From contig JANWVT010000003.1 in NCBI GenBank assembly GCA_025056255.1, positions 62,001-126,000 on the forward strand: a stretch of 64,000 bases of DNA. The letters run 5' to 3'. Shown in pieces: positions 9,850 through 15,115 of this stretch. A program made the translations under genes and the position numbers. Origin of the DNA: Bernardetiaceae bacterium (lineage in GTDB: Bacteria; Bacteroidota; Bacteroidia; Cytophagales; Thermoflexibacteraceae). A model generated the notes under the pieces. That model worked only from the letters and a program-made list of their open reading frames with translations, made no database searches and was not told the origin of the DNA. Positions within the stretch are counted from its first letter, which is position 1. Every line of letters begins with the position of its first letter.

Positions 9850-10305
9850 ATGCTAACCGTCATCGAAAAACCCGACTACAAAATTGCTTTTGATGAGGCA
9901 CATCGAATGCTCGTTGTCACGGACATGATAACGCGCCACGTGAGCAACGAGGAAGTAAAAGAAATAATTGGTTGGGTTGCTAATGCTATCCGACGATATC
10001 GCCCACTGTATTACTTAGGAGACGATACCCAAAGAAACTACGTGTTCAGCGCTGAAATCCAAAAATGGGTGGCTGAAACCATGCTCTCGGCTTGCATTGC
10101 CGCTGGAATGAAAAAGTTTGCTCTGGTTCAGCCCCAAGACCTCATTGCCGGACTTTCCAATGAACAAACAGCCGATGAAATACCGCCAGATATTCCAATA
10201 GCCATTGGTTTTTTCTCCTCCGTAGAAGAAGCTAAACAATGGCTGCTCTCAGATGCCAGTGATGTACAAACCTTTCTCAACAGCTCACAAGAGTTTTCCA
10301 GTTAG
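9850..10305 (+). CDS. STAS/SpoIIAA-like small cytoplasmic protein
   Basis: 151 residues, no signal peptide. The pattern of strands and helices, with LVVTDMITRHVSNEEV near the N-terminus and the C-terminal FFSSVEEAKQWL, resembles the SpoIIAA/STAS-like proteins common in Bacteroidota. These have no catalytic motif and are thought to bind partners or small lipids. The start ATG lies 10 bp after dapA. It is the last gene of the plus-strand run before a convergent region with a repeat array. The family assignment comes from overall pattern only and is moderate. Confidence 0.65.
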   Translation: MLTVIEKPDYKIAFDEAHRMLVVTDMITRHVSNEEVKEIIGWVANAIRRYRPLYYLGDDTQRNYVFSAEIQKWVAETMLSACIAAGMKKFALVQPQDLIAGLSNEQTADEIPPDIPIAIGFFSSVEEAKQWLLSDASDVQTFLNSSQEFSS

Positions 10306-10633: not shown

Positions 10634-12112
10634 CTAATTTTCCCAAATGACTTCTTCCCATTCGGCATAAATCTGTTGTAGTTGGGATTGCCGCTCTGTA
10701 TTAGGGACAATACGACAAATACACTGCAACTGGCTAAATGCCTCCTCTAAACTGACCAGCCCGGCACCAATGGCAGCTCCGCGTGCTGCTCCTTGTGCGC
10801 CATCGGTGTTGTAGAGCTCAATAGTAGCACCGCTTAGGTCAGCAAGGGTTTGCCCAAACAGCGGACTAAGGAACATGTTGGCATGACCAGCGCGAATAGT
10901 TGCCAACTGAATACCGGCTTGCTGCATTGCCTTCATGCCATACCACAGCGCAAATACAATACCCTCTTGTGCTGCGCGCAATACATGAGCGCGGGTGTGA
11001 GTGCTAAATTGCAAGCCCTTTATGCGAGCACCCACATTGCAATTGCCCAGCATGCGCTCTGCTCCATTGCCAAAAGGATAAATGCGCACCCCTTGTGCGC
11101 CTACTGGAACGGAAGCAGCAAGCTCATTCATGGCTGTATAGCTCAACTCGGGACATAAGTTGCGGCGCAACCATGCATTTAGGCTACCTGTTCCATTCAC
11201 ACATAGCAATGCCCCCAAGCGGGGTTGCGCAGGCTGATGATTAACATGTAGAAATGTATTGAAGCGCATTTGAGGGTCGGGAGTGGCTGTTTCGCTTACG
11301 CCATACACTACCCCCGACGTACCGGCGGTGGCAGCTATTTCTCCCGGATTAAGCACGCGCAGCGCAAAAGCATTGTTGGGTTGGTCGCCAGCGCGATAAG
11401 TAACAGGCGTATTGGGAGCAAGTCCCAACAGGTTAGCTGCCTCAGCAGTAAGTGCACCTTGCCAACCGAGGGTAGGAACAAGTTCTGGGATAAGTTCGCG
11501 GCGAATGTGGTAGTATGTTATCAGTTGTTCGGAGGGCTCATTGTTTTGGAAATCCCACAATGCCCCCTCGGAGAGTCCAGAGGCGGTAGTAGTGGCTTTA
11601 CCCGTCATGCGGAAAGCAATGAAGTCGCCGGGGAGCATCATTCGGTAAGCACGTTCGTAAATAGAAGGCTCGTGTTCAATCACCCAGCGCAATTTAGAGG
11701 CAGTAAAGTTACCGGGCGAATTGAGCAAGCGCTGCAGGCAAGCTTGCGTTCCAAGTGCTGCAAATGCGCGCTCACCAATGGCAACGGCGCGGCTGTCGCA
11801 CCAAATAATAGCAGAACGCAAGGGATAAGCATTTTCATCAGTCAGTACCAAGCCATGCATCTGATAGGCAATTCCGATGCCGCGAATAGCTTGCGGTGGT
11901 ACTTGTGGAGCTTGTGCGAGCAACTTTCGGGTAGCTTGCTGTACGTATTCCCACCACATTAACGGCGACTGCTCCGCCCACCCGGGCTGAGGAGCATCTA
12001 TCGGCATTTCGGTATCGGGAACAGTAACCGATGCCACTGGAATGCCTGCTAACACATCGAAAAGAACAGCTTTAATGGAAGAGCTTCCCACGTCATAACC
12101 AATAGTAAACAT
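10634..12112 (-). CDS. xylB: Xylulokinase, FGGY family
   Basis: Phosphorylates D-xylulose to xylulose 5-phosphate with ATP, feeding the pentose phosphate pathway. The 492 residues are typical of FGGY sugar kinases. The N-terminal phosphate-binding segment GYDVGSSSIKAVLFD is at 4-18, with QPGWAEQ near 42, IIWCDSRA near 103 and a second ATPase-fold signature ATAGTSGVVYGVSE in the second half. These favour xylulokinase over glycerol or gluconate kinase, though substrate cannot be fixed from sequence alone. No xylose isomerase or transporter is adjacent, which is unusual since xylA and xylB are often neighbours. The gene ends toward the 13-bp repeat array A. Confidence 0.88.
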   Translation of the reverse strand: MFTIGYDVGSSSIKAVLFDVLAGIPVASVTVPDTEMPIDAPQPGWAEQSPLMWWEYVQQATRKLLAQAPQVPPQAIRGIGIAYQMHGLVLTDENAYPLRSAIIWCDSRAVAIGERAFAALGTQACLQRLLNSPGNFTASKLRWVIEHEPSIYERAYRMMLPGDFIAFRMTGKATTTASGLSEGALWDFQNNEPSEQLITYYHIRRELIPELVPTLGWQGALTAEAANLLGLAPNTPVTYRAGDQPNNAFALRVLNPGEIAATAGTSGVVYGVSETATPDPQMRFNTFLHVNHQPAQPRLGALLCVNGTGSLNAWLRRNLCPELSYTAMNELAASVPVGAQGVRIYPFGNGAERMLGNCNVGARIKGLQFSTHTRAHVLRAAQEGIVFALWYGMKAMQQAGIQLATIRAGHANMFLSPLFGQTLADLSGATIELYNTDGAQGAARGAAIGAGLVSLEEAFSQLQCICRIVPNTERQSQLQQIYAEWEEVIWEN

Positions 12113-12238: not shown

Positions 12239-14227
12239 TTACCGGGTTGTAATACGGATAATGCTGCGCTTACCCTGCTGCGTCTCGATACTTATCGACT
12301 GAATTTTTGAAGGCATCAGGTTATTAATTTCTTCTTTACTGGCGGGTTTGCCGTTGATAAAATAATCAGCATTTGCATCTTCTAAGTGCCATACAGTACC
12401 GCCCGGTATGGTGATAGAGAGATTTTTAAACGCTCCCAGTTGGCGATGTACATACTTAGTAATGCTATCTACTTGTATTTGAACGTCTATTGCTTTTTTC
12501 TGGCGGACTTTGAGTAAGCTGTCTATCTTGATAAACTCGTCTACCATGCGGACGTGTGGTACGCTAATATCAACCCTACTTGTTCGTTTGTGTTGCATCT
12601 GAATCTCTTCCAATGCTTTCTTCATGGCTTCCTCAGCCTCTTTGCGTTGTTTTTTGCTCAACTTTTCATTTTTGCGAAGCTCCTCCAACGCTTTTTCCAA
12701 TAGCTCCTGCTTAGCCTTGCTTTCTTTTTCTGCCTCTAATTGGAAAAGCATCAATGTATCTTTGTTCTTATACATCAAACTGTCAACACCGATGTATATC
12801 CATTTATTGTCCCGTTGGAGTTGTCTTGTCCCTTTTTTGTTGCGGAAACTATCTGAAAGAGCATAAAGGCGGCGCATCAGGCTGTCCACATTGTCCTTAG
12901 AAGGCAAGCGATAAAAAAGAGAATCTCGAATGATAAAACTTTTAATAGCAATAGGGCTATTCAAATTTATTGAGATCTCGTCGCCTTCTAGCACAATAGT
13001 ATCGCGTCGGTTGCCATCTTTTTTCACTACGGTAACTTTCTGTCGTTCTTTTCGGGTAGTGTCGGGAAGAGGTAGATTTAAAATTTGGCTCAATTTATTT
13101 TCTGCCTGATGTATTAACTGGTGGGTTTTGGTTTGCACTTCTTGGGCAACAGATTGCAAGGCTTCGGTGCGTACGCTCACTAATGTAAGCAGGCAGAAAA
13201 GTGTTAGCGCTACTCCAAAACGAACGGGAAAAGTCTGCAAAGCCCATTGATTAACCCGATGAGGCTGCAAAAGGCGCACAATGCGCGGCAACAACTTGCC
13301 TTTGGTTTTTCCTGTAGCTGCCAATGCATGTACAGCTGTTACAGGTTTGGTAATTAAGTCGGCAAGGTTTGCCAATGCTTTCACATACAGCATAGTATCA
13401 CCTGTAATAGTAATCGCAATATCATCGCAACAATTCTCGCGCTCCTGATTAATTTGCGTAGACATCCACCAAATGGCTGGATGATAGAACAATACCGCCT
13501 CTACTATGGACTGGCAAATATGTACCAAGAAATCGTGGCGACGAATATGTGCCAATTCATGTGCTAAAACCGCCTCCAATTGCTGTGGTGGCAAAGCAGT
13601 AAGCAACCCAACAGGTAGCAAAATGACGGGTTGGAGCCAGCCAATTACCAGAGGTGTGGACACCATCGCCGACTCTACTAACTGAACTTGCTTAGCAAGC
13701 CCCATGCGCGCTGCCATTTGCTGCACTATGCTCAACCATTCGGTGGCAACTGGGCGAGTACCAATAGTGCGCAACTGGTGTGTTTGCCACAGCCCAAGCC
13801 CTACTCGTGCAGAGAAAATAACAGCACCTATGCACCAAAAAGCAACTATAACAGGCAATTGCTTACCTATCCATTGCATCACAAAAAAGTAGTAGTCGGC
13901 TAAGGTTTGGCAGTCTGCCCACGTTGTAGACGCTGATGGCGGAGCAACCCAAAGTTTAGCAAACAGCGGTTTGGTATTTACCCAAACTGCAACAGACGGA
14001 GCAGGTTCGTACAAGTAAATGAAAGTAGCAATAAAACTAACAAAAGCAGCCGCCATAAATGCCAGTGCTGTGTAGTACCGCACCCGTGCGGGCTGGTTGT
14101 GCAAAATGCCCAAACAGATGCCACAAAGCAAAGCAAGCAGCATAATTTGCCACAAAGAGTGGATGATTGCCCAACCAAAAGCATCGGTAAGAGTGCGCTG
14201 TTGAACCACTTGCTCAAAAAGTATCAT
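12239..14227 (-). CDS. BlaR1/MecR1-like M56 membrane metallopeptidase with plug-like C-terminus
   Basis: Membrane sensor-protease of the M56 family, expected to relieve repression by its BlaI-type partner. Hydrophobic segments occur near residues 20-40, 52-72 and 123-140. The zinc protease motif HELAH is at 223-227 (AHELAHIRRHD), with the glutamate-containing QERENCCDD further on. A membrane segment near residues 330-350 follows. The C-terminal 300 residues are not a penicillin-binding domain. They hold a charged helical region (KALEELRKNEK and similar) and end with YFINGKPASKEEINNL and ISIETQQGKRSIIRITTR, which resemble the short plug-like ends seen on TonB-receptor plugs and some Bacteroidota M56 proteins. 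The start overlaps the stop of the regulator gene by ATGA (14224-14227). The signal sensed is unknown; beta-lactam should not be assumed. Confidence 0.88.
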   Translation of the reverse strand: MILFEQVVQQRTLTDAFGWAIIHSLWQIMLLALLCGICLGILHNQPARVRYYTALAFMAAAFVSFIATFIYLYEPAPSVAVWVNTKPLFAKLWVAPPSASTTWADCQTLADYYFFVMQWIGKQLPVIVAFWCIGAVIFSARVGLGLWQTHQLRTIGTRPVATEWLSIVQQMAARMGLAKQVQLVESAMVSTPLVIGWLQPVILLPVGLLTALPPQQLEAVLAHELAHIRRHDFLVHICQSIVEAVLFYHPAIWWMSTQINQERENCCDDIAITITGDTMLYVKALANLADLITKPVTAVHALAATGKTKGKLLPRIVRLLQPHRVNQWALQTFPVRFGVALTLFCLLTLVSVRTEALQSVAQEVQTKTHQLIHQAENKLSQILNLPLPDTTRKERQKVTVVKKDGNRRDTIVLEGDEISINLNSPIAIKSFIIRDSLFYRLPSKDNVDSLMRRLYALSDSFRNKKGTRQLQRDNKWIYIGVDSLMYKNKDTLMLFQLEAEKESKAKQELLEKALEELRKNEKLSKKQRKEAEEAMKKALEEIQMQHKRTSRVDISVPHVRMVDEFIKIDSLLKVRQKKAIDVQIQVDSITKYVHRQLGAFKNLSITIPGGTVWHLEDANADYFINGKPASKEEINNLMPSKIQSISIETQQGKRSIIRITTR

Positions 14228-14613
14228 TTGGCACCTCCTTTCTCCATTTCGTCAATCAGTTTGCGAATTTCGCGCAACTCCTCAGCCGAGGTCTGGCTGT
14301 TGCCCAGTGCTTGCATCACAAGGCTAGCAGCCGAACCTTTGAACACGCTGTCTAAAAACTTGTCTAACAAGCGCTTTTGCATGTCGCGCTCTTGCACAGC
14401 AGCCCTGTAAACGTGTGTGCGCTGGCTCTCGTCGCGAGTAAGCAGCCCCTTCTCGGTCATAATCTGCATCATTTTTAGCGTGGTGGTATAGCCCGTTTCT
14501 CGCTTTAGATTGAGCTGCTCATTAACCTCTCGCACTGTACAAGCTCCTCTTGCCCATAAAATTTGCAAAATTTCTAACTCTGCCTCAGTGGGCTTTACAT
14601 GTTCTGGATTCAT
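14224..14613 (-). CDS. BlaI/MecI/CopY-family transcriptional repressor
   Basis: 129-residue winged-helix repressor. MNPEHVKPTEAELEILQILW opens the DNA-binding domain, ACTVREVNEQL and ETGYTTTLKMMQIM are the helix-turn-helix and recognition region, and the C-terminal helices serve dimerisation. The family represses its own operon until cleaved by the M56 partner, whose gene overlaps by four bases. Upstream lie three perfect TACGAA-N4-TTCGTA palindromes with a promoter-like pair of boxes around the middle one, so autorepression is very likely. The regulated genes beyond this pair cannot be told from the window. Confidence 0.93.
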   Translation of the reverse strand: MNPEHVKPTEAELEILQILWARGACTVREVNEQLNLKRETGYTTTLKMMQIMTEKGLLTRDESQRTHVYRAAVQERDMQKRLLDKFLDSVFKGSAASLVMQALGNSQTSAEELREIRKLIDEMEKGGAK

Positions 14614-14657: not shown

Positions 14658-14673
14658 TACGAATGGTTTCGTA
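14658..14673. promoter_or_regulatory. Operator 1 of the BlaI-like operon
   Basis: Perfect palindrome TACGAA-TGGT-TTCGTA. It lies 45 bp upstream of the repressor ATG, where the transcript is expected to begin. Confidence 0.8.
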
Positions 14674-14676
14674 TTG

Positions 14677-14707
14677 CGAAGATATACGAAGTTTTTCGTA
14701 ATCCAAA
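14677..14707 (-). promoter_or_regulatory. Candidate promoter of the BlaI/M56 operon
   Basis: On the minus strand TTTG (14707-14704) is followed after 19 bp by TATCTTCG (14684-14677), one mismatch from the Bacteroidota -7 box TAnnTTTG. Operator 2 fills almost the whole spacer, a layout expected to block polymerase when bound. Confidence 0.6.
14685..14700. promoter_or_regulatory. Operator 2 of the BlaI-like operon
   Basis: Perfect palindrome TACGAA-GTTT-TTCGTA between the candidate -33 and -7 boxes, starting 27 bp from operator 1. Confidence 0.8.
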
Positions 14708-14713
14708 TTTTTC

Positions 14714-14729
14714 TACGAAAATTTTCGTA
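14714..14729. promoter_or_regulatory. Operator 3 of the BlaI-like operon
   Basis: Perfect palindrome TACGAA-AATT-TTCGTA, symmetrical across all 16 bases, starting 29 bp from operator 2 and upstream of the candidate -33 box. It lies 96 bp from the divergent small secreted-protein gene at 14825 and could also affect that gene. Confidence 0.8.
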
Positions 14730-14824
14730 CGTGTGCTGTAAATGAATTAAAATCTGTCCTTTCCATTGCAACCTTTGCTTGCCTATGTGCATCTATAAGC
14801 AGCAAAACTTAAACTTTATTGCAT

Positions 14825-15115
14825 ATGAAATGGCTGCTGATAGTACTGTTTTTATTGTTGAGCGCACATGTAGGCTTTGCCCGCAGAGCAATGCCCGCAG
14901 ATATTTCTCAAAGCGATCTGACCGTTCCTCTGCCTTGCTTGCAATTAGAAAAATGCAATACTCACCAAACCTACATAATAAACCCAGCAGAGGACAGAAA
15001 AACAATGATTGAAAAAGTACTAAGCGCACTTGGCGCACTTTTCTATTGGGTTGCACGTGCCATTGTTCGTAGGAATACAAAAAATACCAAACCGCTGGTT
15101 AGAAAACAATGTTAA
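14825..15115 (+). CDS. Small secreted hypothetical protein
   Basis: 96 residues from the ATG at 14825 (an in-frame TTG lies six bases earlier). The N-terminus MKWLLIVLFLLLSAHVGFA is a textbook signal peptide. The mature part is short, with two Cys close together (PCLQLEKC), a hydrophobic segment ALGALFYWVARAIV and a basic C-terminus with a final Cys. I do not recognise a family. It is divergent from the BlaI-like gene. The clear signal peptide supports expression, but the short length and lack of known relatives keep confidence moderate. Confidence 0.5.
   Translation: MKWLLIVLFLLLSAHVGFARRAMPADISQSDLTVPLPCLQLEKCNTHQTYIINPAEDRKTMIEKVLSALGALFYWVARAIVRRNTKNTKPLVRKQC

Follow-up and report, generated by a model that had tools for sequence, protein, structure and literature searches.

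Which protein reads the three palindromes that stand in front of a repressor-protease gene pair in this 64,000-nucleotide stretch of DNA (the window, meaning the whole stretch that was analysed), and what would its binding accomplish? We propose that they very probably constitute the operator array of the adjacent BlaI, which would repress its own blaI-M56 operon until repression is relieved via M56, the membrane protease encoded by the second gene. A sequence-only reading had pointed to three exact copies of TACGAA-N4-TTCGTA, with starts 27 and 29 bp apart, next to genes for a 129-residue BlaI and an M56 protease. The features that the argument requires are the following.

12239-14227, minus strand: gene for an M56 membrane metallopeptidase of 662 amino acids with a HELAH motif (PF05569, E=2.6e-25, residues 109-294 only).
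14224-14613, minus strand: blaI, encoding a 129-amino-acid winged-helix repressor of the YTTTLKxMQ clade (PF03965, E=1.8e-29).
14658-14673, unstranded: O3, putative proximal operator, TACGAATGGTTTCGTA on the plus strand; exact match, at the expected transcription start.
14677-14684, minus strand: -7 box TATCTTCG, from the sequence; directly abuts O2, and reads TATCTTTG in congener G002.
14685-14700, unstranded: O2, putative middle operator, TACGAAGTTTTTCGTA on the plus strand; exact match, filling the -33/-7 spacer.
14704-14707, minus strand: -33 box TTTG, from the sequence; consensus TTTG / TAnnTTTG (PMC7366714).
14714-14729, unstranded: O1, putative distal operator, TACGAAAATTTTCGTA; exact match, 5' of the -33 box, with the same spacing in G002.

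The number, exactness and spacing of the palindromes were as the earlier reading had given them, and every one forms a perfect inverted repeat. The 3,389,440-base genome (107 contigs) contains no further exact copy, so the genome scan which that reading had proposed returned nothing beyond the blaI promoter. A first-order Markov model derived from the window predicts 0.002 copies of TACGAA-N4-TTCGTA per 64 kb and 0.12 per genome, and the pattern read backwards, our control, has no exact match across the window's whole genome. It is exceedingly improbable that the palindromes are products of chance or members of a dispersed repeat family: lone exact palindromes do arise about once per genome in some relatives, as gauged by the reversed control, but here three exact copies are packed into 72 bp with none elsewhere in the genome, and a reversed control for tandem arrays matches only 1 of 291 and 0 of 296 genomes.

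The two genes have the family relationships that had been assigned to them. BlaI matches PF03965 over residues 9-122 with 102.9 bits (cut-off 22.6), and a genome-wide search found no second PF03965 gene; the M56 start overlaps the blaI stop by 4 nt. We file blaI as a PF03965 member and the protease as an M56 member, and neither as a BlaI/BlaR1 beta-lactam resistance protein. The following minus-strand gene (10634-12112) encodes, by inspection, a sugar kinase-like protein, and no family is evidently shared 3' of M56 across the genera of relatives compared, as a third operon gene would be. On the other side of the array, about 95 bp away, starts a divergent ORF (14819-15115 or 14825-15115, plus strand; about 96-98 amino acids, with a signal-peptide-like start), which we rejected as a target since it lacks any family match and is absent beside blaI in G002. 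Separately, a protein of about 150 residues, its likeness judged by eye only, is encoded close to blaI-M56 in each of the three congeners where the pair is retained, although its orientation differs (window 9850-10305, plus; L215:3309-3785, minus; L068:2282-2752, minus).

Conservation in relatives associates the array with blaI itself. Close orthologues of BlaI, with 44-84% identity, occur in about half of 59 relatives' genomes, and nearly every one is preceded by two or three near-identical palindromes, which are lacking at the most divergent (L032). Comparison of the relatives identifies TACGA-N6-TCGTA as the conserved core, with variation at the inner A/T of the half-site. The sequence-only reading had singled out loss of the palindromes from close relatives keeping the pair as evidence that would speak against it; congeners that keep blaI keep the array, with three core copies at the window's spacing in G002 and two in G001, and congener G003 has neither a BlaI homologue nor an array. 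Since the divergent-side gene differs between the window, where it is the 98-aa ORF, and G002, where it is an unrelated gene, the array follows blaI rather than the neighbourhood.

Conservation upstream of orthologous pairs, which had also been put forward as a check, extends well beyond the genus. A wider scan, with one genome per species, covered 80 named orthologues from Cytophagales, Chitinophagales/Saprospirales, Sphingobacteriales, Marinifilaceae and a few Ignavibacteria, Kapaibacterium and Aminicenantes MAGs. Within 300 bp 5' of blaI, the exact core is present in at least one copy at 79 of these 80 loci, in at least two at 72 and in at least three at 32. Owing to their common descent, these loci do not amount to independent trials, but what separates the half-sites differs from locus to locus, as does the distance to the start codon. 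Counting against the reading, L102 lacks an exact site in this interval, and the single site of L098 is 277 bp away. A dyad search that presupposed no motif ranked TACGA-N6-TCGTA first, at 77 of the 80 orthologues. Moreover, an M56 gene with an HExxH motif comes next after blaI, often overlapping it, in all 77 loci whose contig is long enough.

The association is restricted to one type of BlaI. At 24 paralogous BlaI genes of the same order, several of them from the same genomes, TACGA-N6-TCGTA was found 0 times; the dyads at these paralogues are AACTA-N6-TAGTT in ten, the classical CTACA-N2-TGTAG in a few and TACGA-N5-TCGTA in two. A maximum-likelihood tree of 65 repressors places every TACGA-N6 row in a single clade (support 100/99), with the operator in 39 of its 41 rows, while the CTACA-N2 rows belong to another clade (99/96) and the AACTA-N6 rows to a third, larger group. 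Within the window's clade, the recognition-helix region GYTTTLKxMQ is mostly invariant. The presence of the motif at 79 of 80 orthologues and 0 of 24 paralogues, together with a single clade of 100/99 support, links it to BlaI rather than to another factor and provides strong circumstantial evidence that this BlaI reads the array, in agreement with the earlier suggestion that the palindromes are operators of the adjacent repressor.

Two side observations concern the paralogues. The common Cytophagales type (AYNTVSTIVRILE; L228-L230, L232, L033-L035 and others) has overlapping AACTA-N6-TAGTT dyads at its promoters, apparently another undescribed operator. A long-branched type (PPYTTLASTIRN; L218, L231) carries TACGAA-N3-TTCGTA, which has the same half-site at a spacing one base shorter.

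The identity of a binding protein is not provable from sequence alone, and the palindromes could in principle be operators through which another factor, for example of the ECF or LytTR type, activates or represses blaI-M56. A LytTR response regulator gene does lie about 1 kb from the array, and another is found near one extra array in L057. We nevertheless consider this explanation improbable, given that the motif tracks the BlaI clade through changes of neighbours and is gone along with the orthologue in G003, that it is absent from the 24 paralogue promoters while each BlaI clade has its own dyad, and that the LytTR gene is no neighbour of the array in G002.

How would BlaI act from these sites? 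On the minus strand, O1 (14729-14714) is followed by TTTG (14707-14704), O2 (14700-14685), TATCTTCG (14684-14677), O3 (14673-14658) and finally blaI, which begins at 14613; the placement of O3 relative to the -7 box was read off the sequence. TTTG / TAnnTTTG is the consensus for the Bacteroidetes primary sigma factor (PMC7366714), and the spacer between TTTG and TATCTTCG measures 19 nt (14703-14685), confirming on the minus strand that the middle palindrome sits in the 19-bp spacer of a near-consensus promoter, as first proposed. With O2 in the spacer and O3 at the transcription start, occupation of either would be expected to block initiation. A comparable arrangement is seen at other loci: a promoter (TTTG-18/20-TAnnTTTG, 9 or more of its 10 positions matching) overlaps a TACGA-N6-TCGTA site in 42 of 79 orthologue loci, versus 6% in a control in which site positions were randomised within the same upstream regions, and in 23 of the 24 three-copy loci with a strong promoter it is the middle copy that occupies the spacer.

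The same data bear on whether the repeats could work as RNA, forming hairpins in the 5' untranslated region through which the blaI-M56 messenger would be regulated at translation or termination. Every copy being a perfect inverted repeat, hairpins could be envisaged; but only the most promoter-proximal copy could be transcribed from the predicted promoter, and among the 80 loci the loops and the gap to the start codon differ widely whereas the position at the promoter is kept, which makes an RNA function very improbable.

We therefore return to BlaI as the reader of the array. In the mechanism that we favour, BlaI dimers would occupy the TACGA-N6-TCGTA sites at O1, ahead of the -33 box, at O2, between the -33 and -7 boxes, and at O3, where transcription should start, and would thereby shut off BlaI's own two-gene operon. 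A signal, probably envelope-derived, would reach the periplasmic C-terminal part of M56 and activate its cytoplasmic zinc-protease domain, and active M56 would remove BlaI, directly or indirectly, so that the operon is derepressed. Where extra arrays exist, genes for outer-membrane and secreted proteins would be derepressed as well. By analogy with BlaR1, it is likely that M56 relieves repression by BlaI, although the chemistry may differ. In Staphylococcus aureus, the M56 domain directly cleaves BlaI at N101-F102 (PMC9834060), and this dipeptide aligns with Q101-A102 in the nearly invariant VMQALG of the window's clade. With the dipeptide replaced, the sequence lends no support to cleavage at this position, and relief might work differently; it is conceivable that BlaI is cleaved elsewhere than at 101-102.

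The sensor part of M56 differs among species. Beyond residue 294, the window's M56 matches no Pfam family above cut-off, and lacking a recognised domain there it is not a beta-lactam receptor of the BlaR1 type. A plug-like domain suspected by eye at its end found no Pfam support. A scan of eleven M56 partners, ten of them besides the window's, found no penicillin-binding domain. In three of the eleven, L073 (Thermoflexibacter ruber), L074 and L097 (Marinifilum), the protease domain is followed by TonB-receptor plug domains; with Pfam silent in the window, plug domains are claimed only for these three. The C-terminal part of M56 is thus variable, as expected of a sensor. As a further observation, the Marinifilum protein (L097:5362-8712) has five plug domain matches after the protease domain, and the proteins at L073:847-3651 and L074:5436-8177, the latter from a Cytophagales MAG, bear a type IX secretion sorting domain (Por_Secre_tail) at the C-terminus. 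Such a sorting domain is unexpected for an inner-membrane protease.

We also asked which other genes the operator could control. In the window's genome, no exact site lies outside blaI, and single-mismatch sites number three versus 25 for the reversed control, leaving blaI-M56 as the only predicted array target. In relatives, single exact palindromes were rejected as regulon evidence on the ground that the reversed control is about equally frequent. This noise led us to use only tandem arrays, defined as two core motifs 4-30 nt apart. The set from the order has them in 135 of 291 genomes and the phylum sample in 29 of 296; in these two sets the reversed control gave one genome and none, respectively.

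We read 17 arrays away from blaI, in relatives chosen for having extra arrays and apparently mostly Hymenobacter-like. Behind 11 of the 17 lies a gene for a PF14905 outer-membrane beta-barrel protein, whose N-terminus is usually carboxypeptidase-regulatory-like; given the non-random choice of genomes, this figure is descriptive and not an enrichment test. One of these arrays (L211) comes from a genome of the window's own family, and TAnnTTTG-like boxes adjoin most of the arrays 5' of beta-barrel genes. Two arrays, one per lineage (L208, L210), precede secreted retropepsin-like aspartyl proteases, L205 precedes an S41 peptidase, L209 precedes a small protein that carries a type IX secretion tail, and the remaining two (L057, L212) have no clear target. 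Among single sites, the one that two sister genomes have before a gene for a PF00144 serine hydrolase (L064, L065) is suggestive only; those at a DUF2807 protein (L058) and an amidohydrolase (L062) are weak, and the L063 site lies inside a coding frame. The L209 array (C530:25540-25579) belongs to genome G004, a family member whose assembly is 89% complete and yields a distant paralogue as its best and only BlaI hit, and either the orthologue is missing from this incomplete assembly or another protein reads the array. Charged secreted proteins of the KKKIVIIKxxxDxDGKK type follow M56 in several Saprospiria (L087, L095, L098, L102), and a similar-looking protein stands behind the G004 tandem array (L209:3118-3993); these are possibly a further shared target.

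Since the plugs of M56 in some species resemble the plug of the kind of protein regulated in others, it is tempting to speculate that the signal comes from the outer membrane. The periplasmic part of M56 would then watch that membrane, sensing the state or supply of beta-barrel/TonB-dependent proteins, as part of a phylum-wide, non-antibiotic BlaI/M56 system that acts via BlaI at TACGA-N6-TCGTA arrays to adjust outer-membrane proteins and envelope proteases. We regard this extension as doubtful.

BlaI/M56 pairs lacking a penicillin sensor occur widely among Bacteroidota, and the literature that we searched describes neither their targets nor their signal. That search, made mainly in openly available papers, also returned no publication on a TACGA-N6-TCGTA operator. 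With a reversed tandem control matching one of nearly 600 genomes, the operator is nearly free of noise, which makes the regulon computable. In several lineages the regulon indicated so far takes in envelope proteases along with outer-membrane beta-barrel proteins; in the window's genome the indication is of autoregulation alone.

The comparison with known systems begins with BlaI/BlaR1 of Bacillus licheniformis and S. aureus, which has the same order of a PF03965 repressor gene followed by an M56 gene and several operators at the promoter, three (OP1-OP3) in the autoregulatory bla system of B. licheniformis (PMC3305447). Its operator is TTACATATGTAA, whereas that of the window's system is TACGA-N6-TCGTA; it has a penicillin-binding sensor and N101-F102, whereas the window's pair lacks the sensor and has Q-A instead. 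The window's M56 reaches 70.5 bits against blaR1_generic, far from the cut-off of 400. In the bla/mec divergon, a beta-lactamase or PBP2a gene is divergently encoded; the window has neither and carries the family-less 98-aa ORF in that place. MecI provides the nearest solved structures by sequence profile (1SD6, 1OKR), with a full-length alignment to the window's BlaI, but MecI/MecR1 differs in the recognition helix (SPKTIRTLIT versus GYTTTLKMMQ) and in the operator. CopY/TcrY is the best NCBIfam match of the window's BlaI (TIGR02698, 54.6 bits), far below its cut-off of 121.95; it has C-terminal CxC metal motifs that this BlaI lacks, its operator is RNYKACANNTGTMRNY (PMC7253601), and its partner is a copper ATPase rather than a protease.

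The characterised operators of BlaI, MecI and CopY are of the TACA/TGTA type (PMC7253601, PMC3305447). The sequence-only reading had noted that the window's half-site departs from this type, a difference that now extends to the core TACGA-N6-TCGTA, and a TACA/TGTA-type operator occurs only at another paralogue clade and not at the window's. On the comparisons made here, an entire BlaI clade is predicted to use TACGA-N6-TCGTA as its operator, which differs from those published. Also close are the Cytophagales paralogues of the same family, often encoded in the same genomes yet in clades separate from the window's: the AYNTVSTIVRILE group, with operator AACTA-N6-TAGTT, and the LAITTIGTVLSRLE group, with CTACA-N2-TGTAG. 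Taken with these, the window's clade contributes to an operator code for BlaI clades (TACGA-N6, AACTA-N6, CTACA-N2 and TACGA-N5) that can be compared with the recognition helix.
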